Assembly: GCF_027532185.1 (NCBI RefSeq)
Contig: NZ_JAPZSV010000003.1
Location: 496,001 to 560,000 of the forward strand
Direction of reading: 5' to 3'
DNA from: Hylemonella sp.
GTDB taxonomy: Bacteria; Pseudomonadota; Gammaproteobacteria; Burkholderiales; Burkholderiaceae_C
Length of the DNA: 64,000 nucleotides
This document shows, piece after piece, positions 1,974 to 19,724 of this stretch. The stretch's first letter is position 1; each line of letters starts with the position of its first letter. Under the pieces are notes generated by a model that had not been told where the DNA came from, did no database searches, and was given only the letters and a program-made list of their open reading frames with translations. Both the position numbers and the translations under genes were made by a program.

Positions 1974-2216
1974 GTGTATCGATGCGCACGGCTCGCCGCC
2001 GCGTCAGGACGCGGCACGGGTCACCCGTGCATGGTGCATGTTAATCGACCACTCCCGCCCCTCGGTCCGCGCGGGCCCAATAAATGCGCAAAGCCGGTAT
2101 TCCTGCCGCCTTGCGGTGGATCCATCTACCCGCTCGCGGCGCAGGGGCATGCCGTGCCCCGCACGACAGTGCGCGGCCCAGCGGCTAGAGTGACGCCCGA
2201 GGATCCCGTCCCCACC

Positions 2217-2387
2217 ATGTCCAAGCCCACCGGCCACAAAGGCAACAAGCAGTCCCTGCCCAGCAAGCCCTGCACAGCTTGCGGCCGGCCCATGAGCTGG
2301 CGCAAGAAGTGGGAAAAGAACTGGGAGCAGGTCAAGTACTGCTCCGAAGCCTGCCGCCGTGCCGGCGCGGTGCGCCCGTCCGCATGA
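2217..2387 (+). CDS. DUF2256 small zinc-ribbon-like protein
   Basis: This 56-residue basic protein has two Cys pairs, CTAC near residues 19-22 and CSEAC near 42-46, around a WRKKWEKNWEQVKYCS core. That is the signature of DUF2256, a family often found beside photolyase/cryptochrome genes. The paired cysteines suggest metal binding; the role is unknown. Its TGA overlaps the ATG of the photolyase gene (ATGA), so it leads a translationally coupled operon. The start is the ATG at 2217, which is the only start that leaves a compact family-length protein. Confidence 0.85.
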   Translation: MSKPTGHKGNKQSLPSKPCTACGRPMSWRKKWEKNWEQVKYCSEACRRAGAVRPSA

Positions 2388-3934
2388 GCCCGCTGCGCGC
2401 CCTCGTCATCGTGCTGGGCGACCAGCTCGACCTGCAGGCCGCCGCCTTCGACGGCTTTGATCCCGCGCAGGACCGCGTCTGGATGGCCGAGGTGGCCGAG
2501 GAATCCACCCACATCCCCTCGGGCAAGCCGCGCAGCGTGCTGTTCCTGAGCGCCATGCGCCATTTCGCGCAGGAACTCGCCGCGGCCGGCCGGCCGCTGC
2601 ACTATGTGCGGCTCGACGATGCCGCCAACCGGGGCAGCCTGGCCGCCCAGCTGGCGCAGGACCTGAAGCAACTGCGGCCGCAGCAGCTGATCCTGACCGC
2701 GCCGGGCGACTGGCGCGTGCTCAAGGCCCTGCAGGCCACGGCCGCAGCGGCCGGCCTGCCCCTGGAGCTGCGCGACGACCGCCACTTTTACACCACGGTG
2801 CGCGACTTCGCCGCCCATGCCAAGGGGCGCAAGAGCCTACGCATGGAGTACTTCTACCGCGAGCAGCGCAGGAAGCACGGCGTGCTCATGGAGGGCGACC
2901 AGCCCGCCGGTGGCCAGTGGAATTTCGATGCCGAAAACCGCCAGGCCTTCGGCCCCCAGGGCCCGGGCTTCGTGCCGTCGCGCAGCCGCTTCGAGCCCGA
3001 CGACATCACGCGCGAGGTCATGGCCCTGGTGCAGCAGCGTTTTGCCTCGCACCCGGGCGAGCTGGAGAGTTTTGCCTGGCCTGTCACACGCGCCCAGGCC
3101 CTGCAGGCGCTCGACGACTTCATCACGCAGCGCCTGCCCGATTTCGGTCGCTGGCAGGACGCCATCTGGCCCGGTGAACCCTGGCTCTACCACGCGCAAC
3201 TCGGTGCGGCGCTCAATCTCAAGCTGCTGAACCCGCGCGAGGTCGTGGCCGCCGCCGAGGCCGCCTACCGCGCGGGCCGGGTGCCATTGGCGAGCGCCGA
3301 AGGCTTCATCCGCCAGATCCTGGGCTGGCGCGAGTACGTGCGGGGCATCTACTGGACGCAGATGCCGGACTATCTGGAGCACAACGCGCTCGACGCCCAT
3401 CAACCCCTGCCCGCCTGGTACTGGGACGGCCGCACCGACCTGGCCTGCCTGCGCGACGCCATCACCCAGACGCTGGAACACGGCTACGCGCACCATATCC
3501 AGCGCCTCATGGTCACCGGCCTCTACGCGCTGCTGCTCGGTGTGGAGCCGAAGGAGGTGCACGCCTGGTACCTCGGCGTCTACGTCGATGCCGTGGAATG
3601 GGTGGAGCTGCCCAACACCCTGGGCATGAGCCAGCATGCCGACGGCGGCCTCATGGCCAGCAAGCCCTACATCGCCAGCGGCAAGTACATCGAACGCATG
3701 AGCCCGCTGTGCCGCGGCTGCCGTTACGACCCGGCGCAGCGCACGGGCGAAACTGCCTGTCCCATCACCACGCTGTACTGGGACTTCCTGCTGCGCCACG
3801 AGGCGCGGCTCGCGGCCAACCCGCGCACCGCCCTGCAGGTCAAGAACCTCGCGCGGCTCGACGCCACCGAACGCCAGGCCATCGAGCAGCGTGCCGACGC
3901 CATCCGCCGCGGCGAGGTCGGGGCACTGCCATGA
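2384..3934 (+). CDS. Cryptochrome/photolyase of the iron-sulfur bacterial type (FeS-BCP)
   Basis: The 516-residue product starts with a VIVLGDQLD strand of the N-terminal Rossmann domain and continues into the FAD-binding helical domain. It has the features of the prokaryotic (6-4) photolyase group (PhrB-like, COG3046): EGFIRQILGWREYVRG, the SASGKYIERMSP-type region, and four cysteines placed like the 4Fe-4S ligands of that group (one in ACLRDA, then CRGCRYDP and TACP near the C-terminus). Such enzymes repair (6-4) photoproducts with blue light and FAD, and usually carry a lumazine-type antenna. It overlaps the genes on both sides by ATGA. Confidence in the family is high; the exact lesion repaired is inferred. 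Confidence 0.93.
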   Translation: MSPLRALVIVLGDQLDLQAAAFDGFDPAQDRVWMAEVAEESTHIPSGKPRSVLFLSAMRHFAQELAAAGRPLHYVRLDDAANRGSLAAQLAQDLKQLRPQQLILTAPGDWRVLKALQATAAAAGLPLELRDDRHFYTTVRDFAAHAKGRKSLRMEYFYREQRRKHGVLMEGDQPAGGQWNFDAENRQAFGPQGPGFVPSRSRFEPDDITREVMALVQQRFASHPGELESFAWPVTRAQALQALDDFITQRLPDFGRWQDAIWPGEPWLYHAQLGAALNLKLLNPREVVAAAEAAYRAGRVPLASAEGFIRQILGWREYVRGIYWTQMPDYLEHNALDAHQPLPAWYWDGRTDLACLRDAITQTLEHGYAHHIQRLMVTGLYALLLGVEPKEVHAWYLGVYVDAVEWVELPNTLGMSQHADGGLMASKPYIASGKYIERMSPLCRGCRYDPAQRTGETACPITTLYWDFLLRHEARLAANPRTALQVKNLARLDATERQAIEQRADAIRRGEVGALP

Positions 3935-5169
3935 ACGCGCCCCCGGGCCAGGCCGCCGCCCGCGCGCGGCTGGCCGCGGTGCGCCCGCAGGACTACGCGC
4001 GCACGCGCAACCACCTCGACGGTGCCGTCACCGGCCTCTCGCCCTACCTCACGCACGGCCTGCTGACCTTGCCCGAGGTCCTGGCCGACGTGCTGGCGCG
4101 TGAGGAGCTGCCGGTGCAGCACAAGCTGGTCTTCGAACTCGGCTGGCGCGCCTACTTCCGCCATGTCTGGGCGCACCGCGGTGCGGGCATCTTCGAGTCG
4201 CTGCACCCAGGGCCGCTGCCCGATGCCGCCTACGCGCGCGCGCTGCCCGCCGACCTCCGCGAGGCGCGCACCGGCCTGCCCGTGATCGACCAGGCAGTGC
4301 GCACGCTCTACGCCACGGGCACGCTGCACAACCATGCGCGCCTGTGGCTGGCCAGCTATGTGGTGCACCTGCGCAAGGTGCACTGGCGCGCCGGCGCCGA
4401 CTGGCTCTACGCCCACCTGCTCGACGGCGACCTCGCGAGCAACCACCTGAGCTGGCAGTGGGTGGCGGGCACCGGCAGCCACCAGCCCTATCTCTTCAAC
4501 GCCGAAAACGTGGCACGCCACGCGCCGGCGGCCTGGCACTGCGCGGGCTCCGCCCTCGACACCTCCTACGAGCAGCTGCAGGCCTGGGCGCGCGATGCGC
4601 AGCTGGTGCTTGCTCACACGGACGCGCCGGGCGTCGTCGAACCGGCGCTCTGCACTGAAGCGCCTGCCACGCTGGCCCTGTCGCCGCCCGATCCCGCGGC
4701 GCTGCAGGGCTGCAGCGTCTGGCTCATCCACCCGTGGTCGCTGTCGGCGCCGCCCGACGACCTGCCCGCCGACACCGTGCTGCTCGGCGTCTACCCGGCG
4801 GACTTCCACCGGCAGCATCCCTGGTCGTCCGCGCGCTGGCATTTCGTCGATGCCGGCATGGCCGAACTCACGCCCTGGCGCTGTCTCGCCGACGCCCGGA
4901 CACTGCAGCCCCTGCTGGCCGGCGCACGGCAGGTGCTGGCCTGGGCCGAGCCCCATCTGCCCCACTGGCTGGGCCAGGTGGCACAGCTGCGCCAGCCCGT
5001 GCCGCTGTTCGCGCCCGAGCCGCGGCGCTGCGACTCCTTCTCGCAATGGTGGACCCGCGCCACCCGCGGCCGGCGTCAGGCCAGCGAGCTGCTGCAAGAC
5101 CACGGCGCGCGCAAGGCTGCACTTTTGGACTATCCTCTGCCCCGCTCCCAACCCTCATCCGGACCATGA
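3931..5169 (+). CDS. Photolyase-like FAD-binding protein without an N-terminal photolyase domain
   Basis: In this 412-residue protein, residues 10-225 match the FAD-binding helical domain of class I photolyases: GLSPYLTHGLL, ELGWRAYFRHVWAHRG, TGLPVIDQAVRTL, TLHNHARLWLASYVVH and GDLASNHLSWQWVAGTGS. The usual N-terminal Rossmann antenna domain is missing. Residues 235-412 instead look like an alpha/beta domain (CSVWLIHPWSL, DTVLLGVYP, WHFVDAGMAEL, ARQVLAWAE), which may be the missing domain moved to the C-terminus. It is coupled by ATGA to the photolyase upstream and to DUF2237 downstream. Flavin binding is likely; whether it repairs DNA or senses light is unknown. Confidence 0.85.
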   Translation: MNAPPGQAAARARLAAVRPQDYARTRNHLDGAVTGLSPYLTHGLLTLPEVLADVLAREELPVQHKLVFELGWRAYFRHVWAHRGAGIFESLHPGPLPDAAYARALPADLREARTGLPVIDQAVRTLYATGTLHNHARLWLASYVVHLRKVHWRAGADWLYAHLLDGDLASNHLSWQWVAGTGSHQPYLFNAENVARHAPAAWHCAGSALDTSYEQLQAWARDAQLVLAHTDAPGVVEPALCTEAPATLALSPPDPAALQGCSVWLIHPWSLSAPPDDLPADTVLLGVYPADFHRQHPWSSARWHFVDAGMAELTPWRCLADARTLQPLLAGARQVLAWAEPHLPHWLGQVAQLRQPVPLFAPEPRRCDSFSQWWTRATRGRRQASELLQDHGARKAALLDYPLPRSQPSSGP

Positions 5170-5546
5170 CCGCGAAAAACGTCCTGGGCACGCCGCTCGT
5201 GCCCTGCTCCTACGACCCGCTGACCGGCTACTTCCGTGACGGCTGCTGCAACACCGACGCACAGGACAGCGGCTCCCACGTGATCTGTGCCCGCGTCACA
5301 CAAGCCTTCCTTGAGTTCTCCTCGGCTCGCGGCAATGACCTCTTCATGCCACGGCCCGAGCATCGCTTCCCGGGCCTCAAGGCCGGTGACCGCTGGTGCC
5401 TGTGTGCGCTGCGCTGGAAAGAGGCCTTCGAGGCCGGTGTCGCGCCCCCGGTGGTGCTCGAGAGCACGCACGCACGCGCGCTGGACTACGTCACCATCGC
5501 GCAGCTGCGCGCGCACGAATACCAGCGCCAGCCGAGCCAGCCATGA
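5166..5546 (+). CDS. DUF2237 family protein
   Basis: The 126-residue protein begins NVLGTPLVPCSYDPLTGYFRDGCC and continues with SHVICARVTQAFLEFS and GDRWCLCALRW, the conserved cysteine-rich pattern of DUF2237. The function of this family is not established. It is the fourth gene of the photolyase operon, with ATGA overlaps on both sides, which suggests it works with the photolyases or with light/oxidative stress response. It has no signal peptide or membrane segment and is presumably cytosolic. Confidence 0.85.
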   Translation: MTAKNVLGTPLVPCSYDPLTGYFRDGCCNTDAQDSGSHVICARVTQAFLEFSSARGNDLFMPRPEHRFPGLKAGDRWCLCALRWKEAFEAGVAPPVVLESTHARALDYVTIAQLRAHEYQRQPSQP

Positions 5547-6010
5547 ACCAGCCCCCTCGCGTCGTCGCACTGCTGGGTTACGGTGGCCTGCTGCCCTTTG
5601 CCCTGGGCGCGCTGGGCCTGCTGCTCATGCCCAAGGGCCACGCACTCTGGCAGGCCATGCTGCTGGGCTATGCCGCCATCATCCTGAGCTTCGTCGGCGC
5701 CCTGCACTGGGGTTTCGCCATGAGCGCCTCCGCGGCCGACGCCCCCGGGCTCTACAGCTGGAGCGTGGTGCCGGCGCTGCTGGGCTGGGTGGCCCTGCTG
5801 CTGCCCGGCGTGCTGCCCTTGCTGGGCAGCGATCTGCGTTCAGGCACGGTGCTCGCGGCCGCGCTGCTCATCGTGGCCTATGCCGCGCACTACCTGCAGG
5901 ACCGGCGCTTGACGCGCCGGCAGGCGCTGCCCGCCTGGTACCTGCCGCTGCGTCTGCGTCTGAGCAGCGGTGCCGTGCTGGCCCTGGCCGTGCTGATCGC
6001 ACAGGCCTGA
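5543..6010 (+). CDS. DUF3429 membrane protein
   Basis: This 155-residue protein is strongly hydrophobic, with about five membrane segments (roughly residues 8-28, 37-58, 68-88, 95-115 and 138-153). The pattern GYGGLLPF near the N-terminus and SFVGALHWGFAM near residue 50 is typical of DUF3429. Genes of this family are often found beside photolyase genes, and here it is the last cistron of the photolyase operon, overlapping DUF2237 by ATGA. The molecular role is unknown. It ends 13 bp from the end of the convergent AtzH-like gene. Confidence 0.85.
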   Translation: MNQPPRVVALLGYGGLLPFALGALGLLLMPKGHALWQAMLLGYAAIILSFVGALHWGFAMSASAADAPGLYSWSVVPALLGWVALLLPGVLPLLGSDLRSGTVLAAALLIVAYAAHYLQDRRLTRRQALPAWYLPLRLRLSSGAVLALAVLIAQA

Positions 6011-6023
6011 ACCGTCCCCAGAC

Positions 6024-6419
6024 TCAGCGAGGCGCGGCGAGCAGGCTCACGTGCGCGGCCACCACGCGCCAGCCCGCGGGTGTGCGCATCCAGGTCTGGC
6101 TCTGGCGGCCCGTGGCCGTGCTGCCCTCGCGGCGGAACTCGGTGTTGGCGGTGGCGAAGTCGCGTCCGTAGGTGGTGATCACCGTGTTGTAGATCTCGCG
6201 CATCAGCCCGGCCGAGGGGCGGCCCGCGCGGAAGTCCTGGATCGCCTTGTAGCCATACAGGTTCTCGGTGGCGCCATAGCGCAGCGTGTGCGGGCTGTCC
6301 CAGAACAGCTCGTCGAGCACCTCGACCTTGTTGTGCACCAGTGCGTCTTCGTAACGGGCGAAGGCGGCCTGCATTTCGGCCAGCACCTCGGGCAGATTGA
6401 TGTCCATGGCGGTGTTCAT
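6024..6419 (-). CDS. AtzH/HpxZ-like protein (DUF3225, NTF2 fold)
   Basis: The 131-residue protein matches the DUF3225/AtzH group: an N-terminal helix ([19 protein letters not shown]), then [22 protein letters not shown] and [20 protein letters not shown]. Homologues (HpxZ of the oxalurate pathway, AtzH of the cyanuric acid pathway) are encoded with amidases that hydrolyse small ureides. The gene is the last of the ABC importer operon and overlaps the fused LivMGF gene by ATGA. An amidase sits in the divergent operon at 12614, so the two arms probably serve one pathway. Whether it is catalytic or an accessory subunit is unknown. Confidence 0.85.
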
Positions 6420-8956
6420 GCGGCGAGTTTCGCCGATTCGGCGGTCTCACCCAGGTAGGCCTGGGCCAGCGCCCCATCGGCCGCGATCTGCGCCGCCGTG
6501 CCCTGGGCCACGATGCGCCCACCTTCGATCACATAGGCGCGGTCGGCCAGGGCCAGCGCCAGGCCGGCCATCTGGTCCACCAGCAGCAGGGTCATGCCTT
6601 CCTTGCGCAGCTGGTCCAGTGCGGCAAAGAGCTCGGCAATGATCTTGGGCGCCAGGCCCAGCGAGGGCTCGTCCAGCAGCAGGATGCGCGGGCGCGACAT
6701 CAGCGCACGCGCGATGGCCAGCATCTGCTGTTCACCGCCCGAGAGCAGGCCTGCACGCTGGTGCAGGCGCTCGCGCAGGCGCGGGAAACGCTGCAGCTGT
6801 TCTTCCACGCGCGCCTCGCGGTCCGCGGGCTGCAGGAAGGCGCCGAGGCGGATGTTGTCGAGCACGCTGAGTTCGGGGAAGACCTGGCGGCCTTCGGGCA
6901 CCAGCACCACGCCCTGGGCCACCACCTGCTCGGCGCCCAGGTTCTTGAGCTCGCGCCCTTCGAGATGGATGCCACCCTGCACCGGCCTATGCAGACCGGC
7001 CAGCGCCTTCATCAGCGTAGACTTGCCCGCGCCGTTGGCACCCAGCAGAGCCACGACCTCGCCCTGGCGCACCTGCAGATCGATACCGTGCAGCACGGGC
7101 TCGGCGCCATAACCGGCCACGAGCTGGCCCACGCCCAGCATCTCCGGGCGCTCCGTCGTGTCAGTTGCGCGCGGTCCGCCGCCCTCCAGGGACTCACCGA
7201 GGTAAGCCTGCTGCACCGCCGGGTTGGCCTGCACCTCGGCGGGCGTGCCCACGGCCAGGCGCACACCGGCGTCGAGCACCACCACCTGGTCGCTGATGCC
7301 CATCACCAGCGTCATGTCGTGTTCGACCAGCAGCACGGTCACCCCCGCGTCGGCAATACGCCGCAGCAGCGTGCCCAGACGCTCCTTGTCCTCACGCGAG
7401 AGGCCAGCCGCGGGCTCGTCGAGCAGCAGGGCCTCGGGGTCGCTCGCCAGCGCACGCGCAATCTCCACCAGGCGCCGGTCCACATGCGGCAGGTCGGCCG
7501 CCAGCGTGTCCGGGTGGCCCGTATAGCCACAGTACGCGATGAGTTCACGGGCGCGCGCCGTCAGCGCCGGATCGACGCGACCTGCCGCACCCAGCAGCGG
7601 GCCCAGGCGGCCGCGGTGCATGGCCAGCACCACGTTGTCGAGCACGCTCAAGGAACCGAAGAGCTGCGAGGTCTGGTAGGTGCGCGCCACGCCGCGGCGC
7701 GCGATCTGCATCGCACTCTGGCCGGTCAGGGGCGCATCGCCCAGCGCAAACGCGCCGCTCGTGGGCAGGTAGAAGCCACCCAGCATATTGAGCGCGGTGG
7801 ACTTGCCCGCGCCGTTGGGCCCGATCAGGCTGGTCACGGCCGCGGCCGGTGCGCTGAAGTGCAGCTCGGACACGGCACGCACGCCGCCGAACTGCATGGT
7901 CAGGCCCTGGGCGGCGAGGGACTGGCGCGGACGCTGCGGCAGGCTCAGCGTCTCCACCCGGGCGGCCACCGCACTGACCGGCAGTGCCGGCCACAGGCGC
8001 AGCTTGAGACGCCGCGCCAGGCCCGCCACGCCATCCGGCGCCACCCAGAGCACGACGAGCAGCAGCACGCCGAAGAAGAGCAGACGGTATTCCTCCATGC
8101 CGGCCAGCAGCTCGGGCAGCAGGCCCACGATGACCGCGCCCACCAGCGGGCCGGCCACCGAGCCCGCGCCGCCGAGCATGACGACGAGCACGAACAGAAT
8201 CGACTGGATGAAACCGAAGGTGTGCGGCGTGACAAAGCCCGAGAGCGGCGCAAACAGCGCACCCGCCGCCGCCGCGCACAGCGCGGAGACCGCAAAGGCC
8301 ACGGTCTTGATCGCCAGCGGGTTCAGGCCGATGGATTCAGAGGCCGTCTCGGCGTCGCGCACCGCGCGCATGGCGGCGCCCCAGGTGCCGCGCGAGAGCC
8401 AGGCATAGACCGCCAGCGCCAGACCGGCGGCAGCGATGGCCAGCAGGGCCATGGCGCGTTCGCCCTGGGCCAGGCCGCCCAGCGCCGGGCCGGTGATGCC
8501 CATGATGCCGTTCTGCCCACCCGTGAGCGCCCCGGCCTCGACGATGCTGTGCTCGACGATGAAGCCGAAGGCGATGGTGATCATCGCGAGATAGGGGCCT
8601 TTGACGCGCAGCGCAGGCAGCGCCAGCAGCGCGCCGCAGACCGCACCCAGCAAGGCCGCCAGCGGCCAGGCCAGCCAGAAGCTCACCCCGGCCTTGGTGG
8701 TGAGGATGGCCACGGTGTAGGCGCCGATGGCGTAGAAGCCCACATGGCCGAACGACATCTGGCCCGTGAGGCCGATGAGCACATTGAGGCCCACGCCCAC
8801 GATGACCAGCAGCGCCACCTGGGCCAGCACGAAGACCCAGTAGCCGTTGAGCGCGAGCGCCAGGCTGGCCCCCAGGCCCAGCACCAGCATGAAGGCGAGG
8901 ATCTGCAGCGGCGAACCCAGGCCCAGCAGGGCAGCATTCTTGTTTTTCATCGTCAT
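6416..8956 (-). CDS. Fused ABC importer: LivM permease + LivG ATPase + LivF ATPase
   Basis: One uninterrupted frame of 846 residues joins three proteins normally encoded separately in Liv (HAAT) importers. Residues 1-320 are a LivM-type permease with many membrane spans ([32 protein letters not shown]). Residues about 345-590 are a LivG-type ATPase with Walker [10 protein letters not shown] near 377 and Walker [10 protein letters not shown]. Its ABC signature reads LPHVDRR instead of the usual LSYGQQR. Residues about 605-835 are a LivF-type ATPase with Walker [10 protein letters not shown] near 637, signature LSGGEQQ near 737 and LLLDEPSLG. It overlaps livH-like and AtzH-like genes by ATGA. 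The degenerate signature in the G half suggests one weak ATP site. The substrate is probably an amide/ureide rather than leucine, given the neighbours. Confidence 0.92.
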
Positions 8957-12617: not shown

Positions 12618-13825
12618 ACGCCCCCCTGCCCTTCCCCATCAACGACACCGTGGGCGCCTGGGTGCCACACGGCAAATTCACGGTTGCCGGCCAGCCCGGC
12701 GGCCCGCTCAGTGGCCTCACCTTCGCGGCCAAGGACTTGTTTGACGTGGCCGGCCATCCCACGGGCGCTGGCAACCCCAGCTGGCTCGCCACCCACCCCG
12801 TGCCCACGCAGCACAGCGCCGTGGTCGCACAGCTGCTGGCAGCCGGCGCCACGCTCATGGGCAAGGTGCTGACCGACGAGCTGGCCTACAGCCTGCACGG
12901 CGACAACACGCACTACGGCACGCCCCTCAACACGCGCTACCCCGATCGTGTGACCGGCGGCTCGTCCAGCGGCTCGGCCGCCGCCGTCACCGCCGGCCTG
13001 GTGGACTTTGCGCTGGGCACCGACACCGGTGGCTCCACCCGCGTGCCCGCCAGCTACTGCGGCCTCTGGGGCCTGCGCACCACGCACGGCCTGGTGTCGG
13101 CCCAGGGCCTCGTGCCCCTGCACCCCAGCTTCGACACCGCCACCTGGCTGGCGCAGGACGCCGAGGTGTTTGAGCGTGTGGGCCGCGTGCTGCTGCCCGC
13201 CAGCCACCACGCCCCGCGCCGCCTGCTGCTGCCGCTGGACGCCTGGGAACTGGCCGACGAGATCTTCCAGGCGCCGCTGCAACGCGCCCGTGACGCGCTG
13301 GCCCACCAGCTGGCCTGCGTGCCCGAGGGCCTGCGCATCGCCGGAGACACGGGCCTGCCCGCCTGGCGCCAGACCTATGTGACGGCCGGCGCCTATGAAG
13401 GCTGGCAGGTGCACGGCGAGTGGATCACGAAGGCGCAGCCCGTCTTCTCCCCGGCCATCGCCGGCCGCTGGAAGGCCGCAAGCCAGGTCACGGCCGAAGC
13501 CTCCGCCGCTGCACGCGCCACGCAGGCACAGATCCGCGCCCACGTGCACCACCTGCTGGGCACCGACGGCCTGCTGCTGCTGCCCTCGGCCGCCAGCCTG
13601 GCGCCGCTGCGTAACGCCAACCCGGCTGACGTGGATGCCGTGCGCCTGCGCACCATGGCCATCACCTGCATCGCGGGCCTGTGCGGCCTGCCGCAGATCA
13701 GCCTGCCGGTGCCCACCACGGGCGGTGACATACTTGGCGTCTCGCTGCTGGGACCGGCCGGCAGCGACCTGGCCCTGATCCAACTCGCACGCCGCCTGCA
13801 TGCCCAAATCGTCTCCGCCTCGTAG
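12614..13825 (+). CDS. Amidase signature family hydrolase
   Basis: The 403-residue protein has the Ser-cisSer-Lys amidase machinery: Lys40 in TFAAKDLFDV, the GGSSSGSAAAV motif at about 115-125, and Ser141 in GTDTGGSTRVP. The product is shorter than many amidases (450-500 residues), as in the group linked to ureide catabolism (AtzE/HpxY-like). It would hydrolyse an amide bond in the cytosol. It overlaps the deacetylase gene by ATGA and the regulator gene by 26 bp. The AtzH-like partner lies at the end of the divergent operon. The substrate is not identified. Confidence 0.92.
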   Translation: MNAPLPFPINDTVGAWVPHGKFTVAGQPGGPLSGLTFAAKDLFDVAGHPTGAGNPSWLATHPVPTQHSAVVAQLLAAGATLMGKVLTDELAYSLHGDNTHYGTPLNTRYPDRVTGGSSSGSAAAVTAGLVDFALGTDTGGSTRVPASYCGLWGLRTTHGLVSAQGLVPLHPSFDTATWLAQDAEVFERVGRVLLPASHHAPRRLLLPLDAWELADEIFQAPLQRARDALAHQLACVPEGLRIAGDTGLPAWRQTYVTAGAYEGWQVHGEWITKAQPVFSPAIAGRWKAASQVTAEASAAARATQAQIRAHVHHLLGTDGLLLLPSAASLAPLRNANPADVDAVRLRTMAITCIAGLCGLPQISLPVPTTGGDILGVSLLGPAGSDLALIQLARRLHAQIVSAS

Positions 13826-14579
13826 CACCGCTGCACGACCTGCCCGGCGCGCACCCCCGCCGCGCCAGCGCACGCCCGCGCCGCCCGTGGAGGACAGCGC
13901 CGAGGGCGACAGCGCGGACGTAGAGGCCCGCATCTACCGCGCCGTGTTCGAGAGCGTGATGAGCCAGCGCCTCAAGCCCGGCACCAAGCTGCCCGAGGCG
14001 CCGCTATGCGAACTCTTCAAGGTGAGCCGCTCGGTGGTGCGCAAGGTGCTGCAGAAGCTCGCGCACGACCACATCGTGCAGCTGCGCCCCAACCGCGGCG
14101 CCATCGTGGCCGTGCCCACGCGCGAGGAAACCCGCCAGATCTTCGAAGCCCGCCGCGCGCTGGAAGCCGCCATCGTGCGCCTGGTGACAGAACGCGCCAC
14201 CGCGCGCGACCTCAAGGGCCTGCGCGAACAGCTGCGCGCCGAACACGAGGCCATGCACCGCTTCGACCAGCCCGCCTGGGCCAGACTCGCCAGCGCCTAC
14301 CACCTGCGCCTGGCCGAACTCTCGGGCAACCCCATCCTGCAGCGCTACCTGGCCGAAATCGTCTCGCGCTGCTCCCTCATCGTCGCCGTGCACCAGCCCC
14401 CGGGCAACGCGGCGTGTGAGCATGACGAACACGAACGCATCGTGGACTGCATCGCCAAGGGCGACGCCGAAGGCGCGGTCAAGCTCATGGACCAGCATCT
14501 GCGCGAGCTGGAAGAACACCTGATGCTGGTGTCGCCGGGGGATGAGAAGAGTCTGGCGAAGTTGTTGGGGTTGGGGTGA
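13800..14579 (+). CDS. GntR-family (FCD) transcriptional regulator
   Basis: This 259-residue protein has a proline-rich basic tail (1-40), a winged helix with the GntR pattern LKPGTKLPEAPLCELFKVSRS and VVRKVLQKLAHDHIVQLRPN at about 50-105, and an FCD ligand domain (EARRALEAAIVRLVTE, ASAYHLRLAELSGNP, EHERIVDCIAKGD). The FCD histidines suggest a metal-assisted carboxylate-type effector. It overlaps the amidase gene, so it is co-transcribed with the pathway it probably controls, acting on the region 11046-11271. The start at 13800 overlaps the amidase end; a shorter start is possible. Confidence 0.9.
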   Translation: MPKSSPPRSTAARPARRAPPPRQRTPAPPVEDSAEGDSADVEARIYRAVFESVMSQRLKPGTKLPEAPLCELFKVSRSVVRKVLQKLAHDHIVQLRPNRGAIVAVPTREETRQIFEARRALEAAIVRLVTERATARDLKGLREQLRAEHEAMHRFDQPAWARLASAYHLRLAELSGNPILQRYLAEIVSRCSLIVAVHQPPGNAACEHDEHERIVDCIAKGDAEGAVKLMDQHLRELEEHLMLVSPGDEKSLAKLLGLG

Positions 14580-14686
14580 AGCTGGGCGGCTGCAATTGAG
14601 CGCTTGCTACCGCCATTGATGGCGCCGTGACATAGCGATATCAGCCGCGTAGCAGCCCTCAAGCTACAAGCAACCTCACCCAGCCA

Positions 14687-15859
14687 TCAATCACAAAACG
14701 GCCGTATTGACTTGCTATAGCCGTACTTGATTGCTGACGAGAAGAAGCCGCCACACTCAGATTTCTTTTTGCATGGTTCGCATTCCGGCGCATATTCATT
14801 CTTCCAGTCAGAAATCGATTTGACGTAGAACGGATAAACATCCGGATCAACGAGACAGAGCGGCAGGTTGTATATCGAAACAGGAATCCTGTGTGCAGAA
14901 AGAATACGAGCAGCCTGACTCAGCTCTCTCTTGTACTCGATTGGGTCAATCCATAGCGCATCCAGATTGGCGCGGGTGAAGCCCATCATCTCCAAGCCCA
15001 TTAGTGCCACTTGATCAACGAACAGCAAATTGCGAGCTATGTACTCTGCAAGCTTGGGCAAACCGGCGGCTGTCTGCTTGTGAAGTACCACCCGGATTTC
15101 CACCTTCTGCCCGAGTCGTTTGAGATTTAAAACACCACGAACAGTTTCGTCGAATGCGCCATCTGCTTGAACAACATAGTCGTGAAGAGCGGGATCTTCT
15201 GAGTAGATGGGGATGCCAAGCATGACGTCAGGATGGTTGACGGCAGCGTAGGCATCGGCGAACGCAGGATTAGAAAAGTAGCGTCCATTAGACAGAATGT
15301 GCAGCGAAGTAGTTGGCAGCCAGTTTTTGACATGCCGCACGAGAGCGATGAAGTCTTCGCCAAATAGAGTGGGCTCACCTCCGGTGATTCCCAGAGTCCG
15401 TGTATCTCTGGGAATGAGACGAACGAGATCCATAGCCTCGTCAAGTAGCCACTTGTCATCGATGCGTTTTGGGGGTTGTGAGCACATTAAGCAGTAGTTG
15501 TTGCATTGCTCAGTTAGCAGAATGCTGTTGTGCTCCGAATTCGCGCGGAATAATGATCGGAGATGTCCTTCCGACAAGGCCACCACGTCACCTTCCGCCA
15601 GGTAGCCGAATTCGGCGCCCATAACCGTCCAGTCTCCAGAGAATCCTTCAGGCTTAGGGCCGAAGGCAAAGTAGTGCGAATAGCCAGTCGGGATATCCGT
15701 GAATCTATCTTGAACAAGTAGGGCCTTCTGGCTTCGCAACCCAGGAGGGAGATCGGCGTTAGTTGTCAGGCTATAAAGACCTCTTCCGTCGCGCTTTAGC
15801 CCCAGTGGCTTCGGCGCTTCCGACTCTATCCGGATGACTCGGCCAGACAGTGTCAGCAT
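14687..15859 (-). CDS. hxsC: His-Xaa-Ser system radical SAM maturase HxsC
   Basis: The 390-residue radical SAM protein has the cluster motif CNNYCLMC (Cys119, Cys123, Cys126) and then TLGITGGEPTLFGEDF, the SAM-binding GGEP region. A C-terminal cysteine cluster (CEPCKKKSECGGFF and a last FCD) probably binds an extra iron-sulfur centre. The pattern and the neighbours identify HxsC of the Hxs system. A TTG at 15871 is an alternative start, but the ATG at 15859 has AGG upstream and overlaps the end of hxsB by only a few bases. Gene G+C is clearly lower than in the flanks. The reaction on HxsA is unknown. Confidence 0.9.
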   Translation of the reverse strand: MLTLSGRVIRIESEAPKPLGLKRDGRGLYSLTTNADLPPGLRSQKALLVQDRFTDIPTGYSHYFAFGPKPEGFSGDWTVMGAEFGYLAEGDVVALSEGHLRSLFRANSEHNSILLTEQCNNYCLMCSQPPKRIDDKWLLDEAMDLVRLIPRDTRTLGITGGEPTLFGEDFIALVRHVKNWLPTTSLHILSNGRYFSNPAFADAYAAVNHPDVMLGIPIYSEDPALHDYVVQADGAFDETVRGVLNLKRLGQKVEIRVVLHKQTAAGLPKLAEYIARNLLFVDQVALMGLEMMGFTRANLDALWIDPIEYKRELSQAARILSAHRIPVSIYNLPLCLVDPDVYPFYVKSISDWKNEYAPECEPCKKKSECGGFFSSAIKYGYSKSIRPFCD

Positions 15860-17313
15860 TTCTGCACCCAACCTCGGAAGATGTCGTGGGCTTCCTGGTC
15901 CTTACGCATGGTTTCGAGCAGGTATTGAACCGCTCCCATCGTGCGCTTACAGAAATCGGATTCAGGCTTGCGGCCCAGTACATCGCCAAAGACTGCATGG
16001 TGAAAGACAGGATCTGCACCGCACCAAGGTTCAAAGGCGCAGTCCGAGCACATCGGCGCAGAAAGCGTGAAGGAGTCTTCTAACGCATCGAGCAGCTTGG
16101 TAGACGTAAAGATGTCGGTGTAATTGTCAGTGTGGACATCACCCAGCCTAAAACTTGCATCCCCCATCTCTTGAAGCATGCGGCTTTCATCGGATGCGTA
16201 AACTCCACCGTCGTAGTTGAAAACTACGGCAGCAATGCCCGCTCCAGCTGGACTCATGAGATCAACGTACCCAGGGTCATTGGAAGTCAGCATCTTGGTC
16301 AGGAGAACCGATGAAAATTGCTCGGAGAAGGGGATACCTTTCTTATTCAAATCCAGGATGTAGTCCATTCCTTCTCGGTAGAAATCCAGCCAACGCGCCG
16401 AGCCATAGGCTTGGTAACTCTTGGTCTTGAGTGCGAAGCCGTAGGGAGACAGATTCCGCAGAAAGACACTGGTGAATCCCTGGCGGACGTATTCGTCGAT
16501 GATCTCTTTGACCCGGTCCAGACTGGCCGGCGACGTTGTCATCAGGGCTGAGACGGAGTCATATCCCAGATAGTCTCGGGCTCGTCGAAGACCATCGGCG
16601 AACCGGGCGTAGCTATCTCGGCCCGGACGAGGTCGATTGGTATTGTGGAGATCCTCGGGGCCATCCAAGGACGTCGAAAGGTAGATCTGATGATCGCGGC
16701 AAAAATCAAGGATGTCGTCAGTCAGCAGTGAAAGCGTCGTGGCAATCACGAATTGCAGTTCGCGCCCCTCAGTCAAGTTCCTTTCTTCTGCAGCCTCGAC
16801 AATCTCACGAATCAGATCAAAATTGAGCAGAGGCTCACCACCTTGGAATTCGATCTTGATGGCGGGATTAGGGGAGCGAAATACCAGGTCCAGCGCCCGT
16901 TGAGCCGTTTCGCTACTCATGTTGAAGGCGGCTTTGTTTTCCGATTGCCTCGACACTTGGCAATACGGGCAGCTATGGTCGCAGCGTAGGGTGACTACAA
17001 AGATGTGAAGGTTTGTGAAGTTGCGGAGGTTTTGATACTTTGTGCGATTTTTCAGCGCCAGGAGTTGAACGCTAGCCGCATCGCCAGGCTCTTGAAGAAA
17101 GTGCTTGGCTCGCAGCTCTGAATAGCTGGGATCGGATGAGGGTAGTCGTTTAGCGACGAAATTGTCCAGCTTGTCTCGTTTCAGGAACGTGAACTCACCA
17201 ACGGCGTTTGTCAGGACAACCTCATCCTCACCAAAGCGTTCAAAACGAAAAGGCAGAAGAGAGTAGCTTCCCAAGTCTGACCTGTACGCCTCAATCGACT
17301 TGAACTGACTCAC
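15853..17313 (-). CDS. hxsB: His-Xaa-Ser system radical SAM maturase HxsB
   Basis: The 486-residue protein has radical SAM motif CDHSCPYC (Cys111, Cys115, Cys118), the EFQGGEPLLNFD segment, and a SPASM-like C-terminus (MCSDCAFEPWCGADPVF and a later FCKRT) for auxiliary clusters. SPASM enzymes modify ribosomal peptides, often by crosslinking or epimerising residues. It starts with GTG at 17313, overlapping the hxsD stop (GTGA), and runs into hxsC. The N-terminal 100 residues could hold a peptide-recognition region. The two radical SAM enzymes are predicted to act on the H-x-S repeats of HxsA. Confidence 0.92.
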   Translation of the reverse strand: MSQFKSIEAYRSDLGSYSLLPFRFERFGEDEVVLTNAVGEFTFLKRDKLDNFVAKRLPSSDPSYSELRAKHFLQEPGDAASVQLLALKNRTKYQNLRNFTNLHIFVVTLRCDHSCPYCQVSRQSENKAAFNMSSETAQRALDLVFRSPNPAIKIEFQGGEPLLNFDLIREIVEAAEERNLTEGRELQFVIATTLSLLTDDILDFCRDHQIYLSTSLDGPEDLHNTNRPRPGRDSYARFADGLRRARDYLGYDSVSALMTTSPASLDRVKEIIDEYVRQGFTSVFLRNLSPYGFALKTKSYQAYGSARWLDFYREGMDYILDLNKKGIPFSEQFSSVLLTKMLTSNDPGYVDLMSPAGAGIAAVVFNYDGGVYASDESRMLQEMGDASFRLGDVHTDNYTDIFTSTKLLDALEDSFTLSAPMCSDCAFEPWCGADPVFHHAVFGDVLGRKPESDFCKRTMGAVQYLLETMRKDQEAHDIFRGWVQKC

Positions 17314-17600
17314 TGCTGAAGTCCCGATCTGGAGAAAGCCAGCGACAAAATCAGATTGCGGACAGGTTCTGTCTCCTGCTTGATCTGGTGGCGGAGTTTT
17401 TGGTCGAGTAGTTCTCGCTTGAAGTCCGCGATCACGATTTCAACCGATGTGTCATTGCCTGTCAGGTCACTGACATCACACATGATCTGGCTCTCGGTCT
17501 GCGAGATCACGATAGTCAATCGATCAATGAACCGGTAAGCGGCCTTCTCGACGACTTCTAACGGATAGACCGACTTGTCCAACGTCACGGTATGCGACAT
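17310..17600 (-). CDS. hxsD: His-Xaa-Ser system protein HxsD
   Basis: This 96-residue protein begins SHTVTLDKSVYPLEVVEKAAYRF and holds ELLDQKLRHQI near residues 67-77, which corresponds to the conserved LLNDYxLRE-type block of HxsD. The size and the place before hxsB are also right. It may be a peptide-recognition or scaffold partner for the maturases; no activity is known. A strong GGGGG ribosome site lies just upstream of the ATG at 17600. It overlaps hxsB by GTGA. Confidence 0.88.
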   Translation of the reverse strand: MSHTVTLDKSVYPLEVVEKAAYRFIDRLTIVISQTESQIMCDVSDLTGNDTSVEIVIADFKRELLDQKLRHQIKQETEPVRNLILSLAFSRSGLQQ

Positions 17601-17623
17601 TGTGTCCCCCTAATTAATGGAAA

Positions 17624-17644
17624 GGCCGGCTACATTGGCCGGCC
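17624..17644 (-). terminator. GC-rich hairpin between hxsA and hxsD (possible attenuator)
   Basis: GGCCGGC at 17624-17630 pairs perfectly with GCCGGCC at 17638-17644 around a 7-base loop. In the direction of transcription it is followed by TTTCC, a short U-run only. It sits after the hxsA stop and before the hxsD ribosome site. It would allow much hxsA mRNA but less of the maturase message, or protect the hxsA 3' end. Confidence 0.6.
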
Positions 17645-17667
17645 ATATTTAACCTACGCAGTACGCA

Positions 17668-17961
17668 TTACCGACTTGAATAATGCGAACGGTGTGAAGA
17701 GTGTGAGCGATGCGAGGAATGGGAACGGTGGTAGGCCATCATGGCTCCCGTCTCAGTAGAGCGTTTGAGAACGAACTCAAAAGCATCGCCTTTTTCGTCT
17801 ACGACAGATACCAAGCCGTCAGGCCGAATCTGATTTGGCTCGACCGTTGCCTGGTTCGAATCGAGCGACTTTTCTTGCGTGGCGGGCGCGATCGCAGCAT
17901 TGCTTGTCTGGCTGGCAAAACCAGCTGCAACAGCGGCGAACGCGAGCATGAATTTTTTCAT
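17668..17961 (-). CDS. hxsA: His-Xaa-Ser repeat peptide HxsA (exported precursor)
   Basis: The 97-residue protein has a signal peptide at about 1-22 (KKFMLAFAAVAAGFASQTSNA), a short middle part with VSVVDEKGDAFEFVLKR, and a C-terminal tail of six consecutive H-x-S units at residues 78-95 (HRS HSS HRS HSS HRS HYS) ending SR. This is the defining feature of HxsA. The tail is the expected target of HxsB and HxsC before or during export to the periplasm. The ATG at 17961 has a GGGGG ribosome site and a consensus-like promoter upstream. Confidence 0.92.
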   Translation of the reverse strand: MKKFMLAFAAVAAGFASQTSNAAIAPATQEKSLDSNQATVEPNQIRPDGLVSVVDEKGDAFEFVLKRSTETGAMMAYHRSHSSHRSHSSHRSHYSSR

Positions 17962-17987
17962 TTGTCCCCCTTCTTTACGACCGACCC

Positions 17988-18016
17988 AATATGCCGCACA
18001 TTTTGTTACATGTCAA
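17988..18016 (-). promoter_or_regulatory. Sigma-70-type promoter of the hxsADBC operon
   Basis: On the minus strand TTGACA (18011-18016) and CATATT (17988-17993) are separated by exactly 17 bp. The -10 element lies 26 bases before the hxsA ATG, leaving a short leader with its ribosome site. This is the best consensus promoter seen in the window and fits strong constitutive expression. It is a sequence prediction only. Confidence 0.65.
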
Positions 18017-18127
18017 CAAGCGAGAAGAGTGGACCTTAAGCCTCAAAACTGGCGAACGTTAGGTATCAACCAGACTTGTCATCCGCCGGCGGAACTTATG
18101 CAACAGCTCCCAACCTACAACAGCCCC

Positions 18128-19234
18128 TCAAGACCCCGCCGGCACCACCCTTAACACCCGCCCCTGCGGACTGTCCGTCAACAGATAGACCGCACCATCC
18201 GGCCCCACCCGCACGTCACGCAGGCGTTCGCCCAGCTCCTTGAACAGCAGCTCCTGCGGGCCGGGCGTGCCGTTGGTCATGGGCACCCGGCGAACGCTGC
18301 GCTCGGCCAGTGCGGCCACCAGCAGGCTGCCGCGCCAGGCGGGGAACAACGCGCCCTCGTACCAGGCCAGCCCGGCCGGTGCGATGGAGGGCGTCCACTC
18401 CGTCAGCGGCTCGGTGATGCCGGGCAGGCTGCGGTAGGGGGTGATGCGGGCGTAGGTGTAGTCCACGCCGCCGGTGGTGAGGGGCCAGCCGTAGTTGGCG
18501 CCGGGCGCGAGGCGGTTGAGTTCGTCGCCGCCGCGCGAGCCGTGTTCGTGCGCATAGGGCACGCCGTTCACCACCACCACGCCCTGCGGGTTGCGGTGGC
18601 CGATGCTGTAGATCTCGGGCAGGGCGCCATCGCGGCCCACAAAGGGGTTGTCGGCGGGCACGCGGCCGTCGGGGTGGATGCGCAGGAACTTGCCCAGGTG
18701 GGTGTGCAGGCGCTGGGCATCGGTGCGCTCGTGGTTGCCGTCGCCCATGCCGAAGAGCAGCGTGCCGTCGGGCAGCCAGGCCATGCGGCCGCCGAAGTGC
18801 TGGGTGTCGGCTTTGGCGGGCTTGGAGGTGAAGACGGGGCGCACGTCCAGCAGCTGGCGCCCATCAAAGCGGGCGCTGGCCACGCGCAGGTGGTTGGCCT
18901 CGCGCGTACCGTGGGCGTAAGAGAGCCACAGGCGCTGGTTGCTGGCGAAGTTGGGATCGAGCAGGAGGTCGAACAGACCGGCCTGCCCCAGCGCCAGCAC
19001 GGGCGGCACGCCGGCCACGGGCTCGGGGCGCAATTGCAAGCGGCCGTCGGCCCCGCGCTCGATCACGCGCAGGCGGCCGGCGCGCTCCGTCACCAGCAGG
19101 CTGCCACCCGGCAGGAAGGCCAGCGACCAGGGGTGCACCAGGCCGCTGGCCACGGTCTCGACGCGGTAGGCCACGGTCTGGGCTGGTGTGGCCATGGCGA
19201 ATGCCGTCAGCAGCAAAGCGAGCAGGTATTTCAT
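18128..19234 (-). CDS. PQQ-dependent sugar dehydrogenase (Asd/YliI-like)
   Basis: The 368-residue exported protein has a signal peptide (KYLLALLLTAFAMATPAQT) and a six-bladed beta-propeller typical of soluble aldose sugar dehydrogenases: ASGLVHPWSLAFLPGG, LLVTERAGRLRV, GQAGLFDLLLDPNF, LPEIYSIGHRNPQG, EHGSRGGDELN and GANYGWP. HRNPQG and HGSRGGDE are the usual PQQ and calcium site segments. It would oxidise sugars or aldehydes in the periplasm with PQQ. The ATG at 19234 begins the signal peptide; an ATG at 19246 is an alternative and overlaps the divergent gene. No PQQ synthesis genes are in the window. Confidence 0.93.
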   Translation of the reverse strand: MKYLLALLLTAFAMATPAQTVAYRVETVASGLVHPWSLAFLPGGSLLVTERAGRLRVIERGADGRLQLRPEPVAGVPPVLALGQAGLFDLLLDPNFASNQRLWLSYAHGTREANHLRVASARFDGRQLLDVRPVFTSKPAKADTQHFGGRMAWLPDGTLLFGMGDGNHERTDAQRLHTHLGKFLRIHPDGRVPADNPFVGRDGALPEIYSIGHRNPQGVVVVNGVPYAHEHGSRGGDELNRLAPGANYGWPLTTGGVDYTYARITPYRSLPGITEPLTEWTPSIAPAGLAWYEGALFPAWRGSLLVAALAERSVRRVPMTNGTPGPQELLFKELGERLRDVRVGPDGAVYLLTDSPQGRVLRVVPAGS

Positions 19235-19244
19235 AATCCCACGC

Positions 19245-19724
19245 ATGAACAACGATGCCCGCCATGATGCCCCAAGGCCCCGCTGGACGCGACGTGCAGG
19301 GCTGTTGCTGGGGGCCTGGGTGCTGGCTGCGGCCTGGGGCTCGGTGGTGCAGACCGTCTGGAACCTGCGCGCGCTGGTGGACGTGGGCGTCAACATCCCG
19401 GCCGCCGACTGGCTGCGGGTGCTGGGGCAGGACCTGATGGGTTTTGCGCCGGTCTACGGCGGCATCCTGGCCGCGGGCTGGCTGGTAGCGCTGCCGGTGG
19501 CCAGCGGCCTGGCGCGCTGGTGGCCGACGGGCCGCAGCGCCCTGCTGGCCGCAGCTGCGGGCGTGGGCATGGTGGCCGCGGTGCGCGCGGTGGACGCCGC
19601 GGCGCCCATGCCGGTGTTCATCGACGCCACGCGTGGCCTGCCCGGCCTGCTGGCCATGGCAGCGGGTGCGGTGCTGGCGGGCTGGCTCTATGGCAAGTTG
19701 TCCGCGCGGCTCTCCGCGCGCTGA
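19245..19724 (+). CDS. Hypothetical four-span membrane protein
   Basis: This 159-residue protein has four hydrophobic segments (about 18-38, 58-82, 92-115 and 130-150) and charged ends. I do not recognise a family. It starts at the ATG at 19245, divergent from the sugar dehydrogenase with almost no gap, so their promoters must overlap the opposite coding region. The spacing of the segments resembles other small unannotated proteobacterial membrane proteins. Confidence 0.75.
   Translation: MNNDARHDAPRPRWTRRAGLLLGAWVLAAAWGSVVQTVWNLRALVDVGVNIPAADWLRVLGQDLMGFAPVYGGILAAGWLVALPVASGLARWWPTGRSALLAAAAGVGMVAAVRAVDAAAPMPVFIDATRGLPGLLAMAAGAVLAGWLYGKLSARLSAR

Follow-up and report, generated by a model that had tools for sequence, protein, structure and literature searches.

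The window analysed here, a stretch of 64,000 nucleotides from Hylemonella sp. (contig NZ_JAPZSV010000003.1), carries at 14687-17961 on its minus strand a four-gene operon, hxsA2-hxsD-hxsB-hxsC, in which every frame is open. We read this operon as a complete, horizontally acquired His-Xaa-Ser (Hxs) cassette of the HxsA2 type, making a row of rings between His (i) and Ser (i+2) on an exported peptide, and we give this reading a probability of roughly 0.4. The underlying observation is confirmed, and it concerns a cassette family that is already named and widespread. An earlier inspection of the letters alone (the sequence-only reading) had proposed a four-gene Hxs system on one strand at this position, and searches with the NCBIfam hidden Markov models at their curated cut-offs bear this out, with HxsB, HxsC and HxsD above threshold and the genes in the order A-D-B-C:

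17668-17961, minus strand: hxsA2, 97-residue precursor (NF038296, 93.8 bits, cut-off 48)
17310-17600, minus strand: hxsD, 96-residue accessory protein (TIGR03976, 74.6 bits, cut-off 50)
15853-17313, minus strand: hxsB, radical SAM maturase with a GTG start (TIGR03978, 635.7 bits, cut-off 370)
14687-15871, minus strand: hxsC, radical SAM maturase with a TTG start (TIGR03977, 406.6 bits, cut-off 267.9)

The precursor had been named HxsA, and the family holds but the subtype does not: it exceeds the HxsA2 cut-off of NF038296, yet reaches 49.9 of the 121.65 bits set for HxsA by TIGR03979. Overlapping ends, also claimed previously, were found for hxsD/hxsB and hxsB/hxsC only, hxsA2 and hxsD being separated by 67 nucleotides. 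For hxsC, the ATG at 15859 looks a likelier start than the TTG. The precursor is short, contains no Cys and has no domain after its core; the features that define it are the following:

17896-17961, minus strand: Sec-type signal peptide, approximately residues 1-22, recognised by eye only (KK, a hydrophobic stretch and S-N-A)
17677-17730, minus strand: core HRS-HSS-HRS-HSS-HRS-HYS, residues 78-95, followed by Ser-Arg

The six tandem H-x-S triplets described at the C-terminus are thus present, and a six-frame scan of the window, which returned 171 single HxS motifs, identified this run of six as the only tandem one. In 20,000 letter shuffles of HxsA the longest tandem run never exceeded three triplets. 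Furthermore, synonymous codons are mixed along the core, so that the six triplets are not simply a repeat in the DNA.

At least 566 confirmed hxs loci were detected, the best 80 of the 566 being kept. The comparison set comprised 114 loci (L008-L121), including the window's copy and a few duplicates (for HxsB, L010 = L052, L011 = L062 and L013 = L089). Within this set hxsC was present in 111 loci, hxsD in 102 and, under a loose HxS screen, a precursor in 108; when four or more HxS on the correct strand were required, the precursor was upstream in 86 loci, downstream in 21 and missing in seven. Two different HxsA precursors within one locus were observed in L054 (4926-5534), L058 (277-883) and L062 (1895-3289).

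The 99 distinct cores hold 601 abutting triplets, with 4-11 per core. Position X is occupied by 15 residue types, of which Ser (244), Ala (134), Arg (94), Tyr (53), Gly (27), Thr (11), Val (10) and His (10) are the most frequent, and Gln, Asn, Cys, Glu, Met, Asp and Ile are rarer; Pro, Lys, Leu, Phe and Trp were never found at X in these triplets. This make-up is not an artefact of locating cores by HxS. From 30 residues before the core through to the end of the precursor, 71 of 694 His lack a Ser at +2, and in the list examined these lie outside the core or form the X of HHS, the exception being an HRT just past the L112 core. In 88 distinct strings of X residues, the same X recurs two triplets along 154 times against 122 in shuffled strings (standard deviation 6.5), which is above all 2000 shuffles, and the last triplet holds 35 of the 49 Tyr.

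Under the proposed mechanism, HxsA2 would be synthesised in the cytoplasm and its HxS tail modified by HxsB and HxsC, each bearing one auxiliary Fe-S cluster, with HxsD as a small adaptor. Within each triplet a side-chain bond would join His (i) to Ser (i+2), giving six small rings that would stiffen the tail. One enzyme would form these bonds and the other would make a second change on the same or on alternate triplets, and the product, exported via its signal peptide, would act in the cell envelope. The conservation of two enzymes suggests two such steps. Reactions of the required spacing have been described: PMC11002830 reports radical SAM enzymes that join residues i and i+2, HaaB forming C2(His)-Cb(Ala) and MscB forming C4(Phe)-Cb(Ser), and a His-to-Ser bond at i/i+2 would, by analogy, combine the two. 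The HxS motif would allow the aromatic/His i to i+2 geometry of these triceptides (HaaB, YhhB and MscB, in the same source), from which the Hxs system differs in that HxsB is not closest to their enzymes and that two radical SAM enzymes and HxsD are conserved together.

The sequence determinants of radical SAM chemistry are conserved in both enzymes:

16960-16983, minus strand: CX3CX2C of HxsB, residues 111-118, kept in 63 of 63 aligned HxsB
15949-16050, minus strand: four further Cys of HxsB (422, 425, 431 and 455), kept in 63, 63, 63 and 62 of 63
15482-15505, minus strand: CX3CX2C of HxsC, residues 123-130 counted from the TTG, with its Cys in 61 of 61 aligned HxsC
14753-14857, minus strand: four further invariant Cys of HxsC (339, 364, 367 and 373), each in 61 of 61

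The four further conserved Cys suggest one auxiliary [4Fe-4S] cluster apiece in HxsB and HxsC, as a prediction from the alignments; a fifth extra Cys of HxsB, Cys205, occurs in 50 of the 63 sequences. The description of HxsB as SPASM-like fared poorly, as it scores 14.7 bits against the Pfam SPASM model, under the gathering score of 21.5, and no SPASM match was listed for HxsC. Among models of other families, HxsB scores highest with those for PapB (120 bits), the nif11 maturase (104 bits) and QhpD (96 bits). The structural model of HxsC (mean confidence, pLDDT, 93.8) shows a beta-rich region of approximately 105 residues followed by the radical SAM core. By fold and by sequence this core is nearest to BlsE, SkfB and viperin, its closest solved relatives, with sequence matches spanning approximately residues 108-271 only; the beta-rich N-terminal region and the C-terminal Cys region lie outside them.

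The model of HxsD (pLDDT 93.1, pTM 0.79) presents a beta-alpha-beta-beta arrangement and a last helix of 41 residues. A Foldseek search returned Pcc1 of KEOPS as best match (TM-score by query 0.47-0.50, best E 6.5e-3), with no sequence link and a function that is unrelated as far as known; since no match fell below E 0.001, this likeness is a lead only. A role for HxsD as an RRE domain was considered and is not supported, given its beta-alpha-beta-beta-alpha model, its weak likeness to Pcc1 and a probability of at most 1.4% when HxsB, HxsC and HxsD were compared by hhalign with 16 PqqD domains, a comparison made without a positive control. At the N-terminus of HxsB a partial alignment to RRE falls at a plausible place with 1% probability, and the best PDB sequence match there (E 0.22) is unconvincing.

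Several points weigh against the ring-forming interpretation. The His-Ser cross-link in HxsA2 is itself a predicted product, and two enzymes are conserved although a single ring chemistry would need one. A full SPASM domain has seven Cys, more than the four extra near-invariant ones of HxsB. With the models of ring-forming enzymes HxsB scores lower than with those named above (YhhB 59.3 bits against a cut-off of 445, GrrM/OscB 49, AmcB 48 and FxsB 37), HxsC reaches 12.2 bits with the YhhB model, and neither enzyme attains the cut-off of a cyclophane maturase. Moreover, the pairing of His and Ser inside cores is partly by construction, because cores were found by the HxS pattern. The six-residue periodicity is also unclean, as adjacent triplets share X as well (163 against 151 shuffled, standard deviation 7, a value reached by 99 of 2000 shuffles), and kinship among cores may create it or add to it.

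The main rival to the cross-link is formylglycine formation, in which HxsB (or HxsC) would oxidise the Ser of each triplet in the manner of an anaerobic sulfatase-maturating enzyme (anSME), the His serving for recognition or metal binding. Ser is fixed as the third residue, the change of -2 Da per triplet would be the same as for the cross-link, and the HxsB profile aligns to solved anSMEs (4k37) over residues 109-470 with E 3e-21. The profile is, however, slightly nearer to 5wgg (E 2.3e-24), its best match among solved proteins, which we take to be CteB. In addition, anSMEs have two auxiliary clusters, to be set against the four extra near-invariant Cys of HxsB, and pure Ser oxidation would explain neither why His is invariant nor why the triplets abut; we regard this alternative as unlikely. 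CteB/PapB-type enzymes and anSMEs are the nearest to HxsB in sequence, both among proteins of known structure (5wgg, 4k37) and among models (PapB). These enzymes act on Cys or on a sulfatase motif in their substrates, whereas the HxsA2 of the window has no Cys, which rules out for it the thioether chemistry of sactipeptides or ranthipeptides; in the region from 35 residues before the core onward, Cys is likewise lacking in 88 of 99 distinct precursors and present in 11.

The second component of the proposed reading, that the cassette is horizontally acquired, is supported by its foreign composition, its lone occurrence among congeners, the variable slot that it occupies, the copies on plasmids, phages and viral contigs, and a tree on which classes are mixed. 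As had been pointed out from the letters, the island is lower in G+C than both flanks (0.521 inside the cassette, 0.687 and 0.665 in the 5 kb on the two sides), and G+C at third codon positions agrees, at 0.55-0.67 in the cassette genes compared with 0.87 and 0.90 in the genes on either side. The operon (hxsD-B-C) lies below its surroundings in G+C in 59 of the 64 named relatives with enough flank, by at least 0.05 in 34, so that a low G+C is common across the family and does not set the window apart.

HxsB was not found in any of the 25 other congeners nor in 10 other members of the family, among 60 genomes including the window's own; beyond that copy, the search recovered six radical SAM matches, all weak and partial (18.6-40 bits), of which three came from congeners. 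Counting this genome, HxsB was present in 5 of 399 genomes of the order and in 15 of 398 of the phylum, 14 of the latter over the cut-off. On the HxsB tree the window belongs to a supported group of 10 rows, five of them from Betaproteobacteria (Cupriavidus, Pandoraea, Neopusillimonas and Azoarcus) and the others being two Alphaproteobacteria, Acidithiobacillus, one row without a class and the window itself. The 13 Betaproteobacteria of this tree require 10 changes, six forced by starred branches, a count inflated because 33 rows without a class, or viral, were scored as 'other'; it is a quick tree in which 35 of 104 inner branches are weak and some are long. HxsB was also detected in 391 plasmid records (316 from Klebsiella, those listed being approximately 33% identical), in loci on 15 viral contigs and in two phage records, among them a Leptospira phage whose annotation includes an A-D-B-C set. 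On one Klebsiella plasmid a divergent hxsD-B-C-A lies between IS1 and IS66 elements, near a resistance integron (L169, 8756-12120).

Comparison with congeners delimited the site of insertion:

14611-18110, no strand: variable slot, at whose edges host homology ends in three congeners carrying other genes
13800-14579, plus strand: GntR/FCD regulator (Pfam FCD and GntR), left border of the slot, pointing inward
18128-19396, minus strand: GSDH-family protein (Pfam GSDH, 370.6 bits), right border of the slot, pointing inward

Nucleotide homology (blastn) of the three congeners (L143, L144 and L145) ends at 14607, 14610 and 14572 on the left and at 18111, 18117 and 18122 on the right, within 40 nucleotides of both edges, and the cargo differs in each of the four species of the genus. 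In L143 the slot (1916-6795) holds a 1040-residue LmuB-like/SMC ATPase and a 586-residue protein without a Pfam match, a two-gene unit that is possibly an undescribed defence system; in L144 it holds three proteins without a Pfam family, and in L145 a DUF6713 protein, a regulator and others, the GSDH frame of L145 containing a stop. Orthologs of the regulator, 84-97% identical, occur in eight of the 25 other congeners (E<=1e-60). In three that carry it (L147-L149) no GSDH homology was found in the 4.6-5.1 kb read beside the regulator; G003 and G007 were not read. The stated lack of mobility genes holds for the genes at 13800-19396, which were screened with Pfam, the rest of the window not having been screened for them. 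No tRNA was found in the window, and repeats at the island ends were limited to short two-copy or imperfect ones.

The location of the product may be judged from relatives. PG_binding_1 was detected in 7 of 18 long HxsA, a sample hand-chosen for testing, and a PEGA domain scored above its cut-off in L094 and just under it in L086. Together with the signal peptide of the window's precursor, these domains point to the envelope as the place of action. The post-core parts of long HxsA from planctomycetes, Verrucomicrobiota and actinobacteria (L079, L080, L071, L092, L095 and L105) have no Pfam match at E 0.01. An extended version of the ring-forming reading appears doubtful when taken in all its parts. 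In it, six His(i)-Ser(i+2) rings would follow one another without a break, like the rungs of a ladder, to form a stiff, His-lined envelope rod (tethered to peptidoglycan in relatives); two radical SAM enzymes with single auxiliary clusters would build it with an adaptor that resembles Pcc1 and is not an RRE, and the cassette would travel between phyla as mobile cargo.

A His-rich envelope peptide could also serve mainly to bind metal, with methylation, hydroxylation, epimerisation or ligand cross-linking tuning its affinity. Six His within 18 residues would suit this role, a siderophore receptor lies near hxs on one plasmid, and in three relatives the next gene after hxs encodes a di-haem peroxidase of the CCP_MauG family or a small protein that accompanies it. 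By eye, however, no metal-handling gene is prominent among the 45 largest neighbour clusters or the co-directional neighbours, which are partly annotated, and Ser is conserved alongside His, making this explanation improbable. The peroxidase genes, each with a gene for a protein of approximately 130 residues, come immediately after hxs; the loci concerned belong to two lineages of marine alphaproteobacteria and to one viral contig (L065, 13005-14625; L066, 13038-14613; L115, 13227-14986). In other loci a methyltransferase-like gene encoding approximately 200 residues overlaps hxsC or lies at most 27 nucleotides from it (L037, 12655-13215; L074, 12613-13140; L081, 12618-13250; L106, 12688-13299); these belong to Pseudomonas, two methanotrophs and an acidobacterial lineage. 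Such neighbours hint at further tailoring in relatives, and neither kind of gene stands beside the operon of the window.

The cassette could instead be an anti-phage or competition system, exporting a peptide that acts against phage or against rival cells. The copies in phage, viral and plasmid records enumerated above would fit this explanation, as would the LmuB-like ATPase in the same slot of one congener. Neighbouring genes do not favour it. Proteins within 3 kb of hxs and at least 5 kb away were sampled (110 of 297 and 110 of 217, respectively, from rough open reading frame calls, some of which are not genes). No enrichment of defence models was seen near hxs, where at most 9 of 110 proteins matched (E<=1e-10), while 21 defence models were matched among the 110 far proteins, 12 PDC-S15 and 5 LmuB models each via one protein. 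Since known defence genes are not visibly richer near hxs than at least 5 kb away, a defence-island reading was rejected; among the 110 near proteins, from named loci, five match Phage_integrase and four a methyltransferase model. Furthermore, HxsB and HxsC match defence models only weakly and only those for viperin, and the four-gene operon contains no immunity or export gene. An anti-phage or competitive function is distinctly improbable.

Upstream of the precursor and within the operon, two further elements were identified:

17988-18016, minus strand: sigma-70-like promoter TTGACA-17-CATATT, 26 nucleotides ahead of the hxsA2 ATG
17624-17644, minus strand: 7-bp GC hairpin in the hxsA2-hxsD gap, a local stem (whole-region fold z -0.63)

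The promoter is argued from its position and not from number, as three promoter-like sites occur in 4 kb against 2.1 expected; a Shine-Dalgarno-like AAGGGGG stretch ends 4 nucleotides ahead of the hxsA2 ATG. The hairpin might raise expression of the precursor above that of the enzymes. It was rejected as a conserved regulator, because in 28 of 36 relatives the open frames of A and D are fewer than 10 nucleotides apart, and the folds that follow hxsA are mixed. Foreign composition and a single occurrence among the congeners searched would also suit a decayed or silent passenger, intact by chance and without a product, but with all frames open, the conserved Cys retained, a promoter-like site and Shine-Dalgarno stretch present and synonymous variation in the core, this is very improbable.

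The closest known arrangement is the hxsA2-D-B-C of a Paraburkholderia phenoliruptrix plasmid, with the same four families, order and strand and an HxsB 62% identical to that of the window, at another genomic site. The long-HxsA (TIGR03979) system has HxsB, HxsC and the HxS core in common with it. In L115 and L119, the two long precursors found above the TIGR03979 cut-off, the gene lies downstream of hxsC and PG_binding_1 stands at the end, whereas the precursor of the window is short, upstream and under that cut-off; other long HxsA are also upstream. PMC8446631 places hxsABCD among the genes of a Pseudomonas aeruginosa strain. With Hxs cassettes already known from many groups, where they are carried by chromosomes, plasmids and phages, the novelty of the locus is low. 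PMC9062424 states that the HxS motif 'putatively' relies on HxsB and HxsC, and the literature searched (partial listings and few subscription papers) returned no characterised HxsB or HxsC or product of theirs, in agreement with the view that the chemistry is unsettled.

The sequence-only reading had ranked this locus as the strongest candidate for undescribed chemistry in the stretch. It is no stronger than its relatives, being one of very many. The cassette is, however, a convenient test case, because it is compact and complete and its short precursor has neither Cys nor a post-core domain. The cross-link and formylglycine readings imply the same mass shift for this peptide, with opposite fragmentation and aldehyde behaviour. 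For the family, the comparison predicts one auxiliary cluster per enzyme, an HxsD that would not act as an RRE, and a product that would be located in the envelope.

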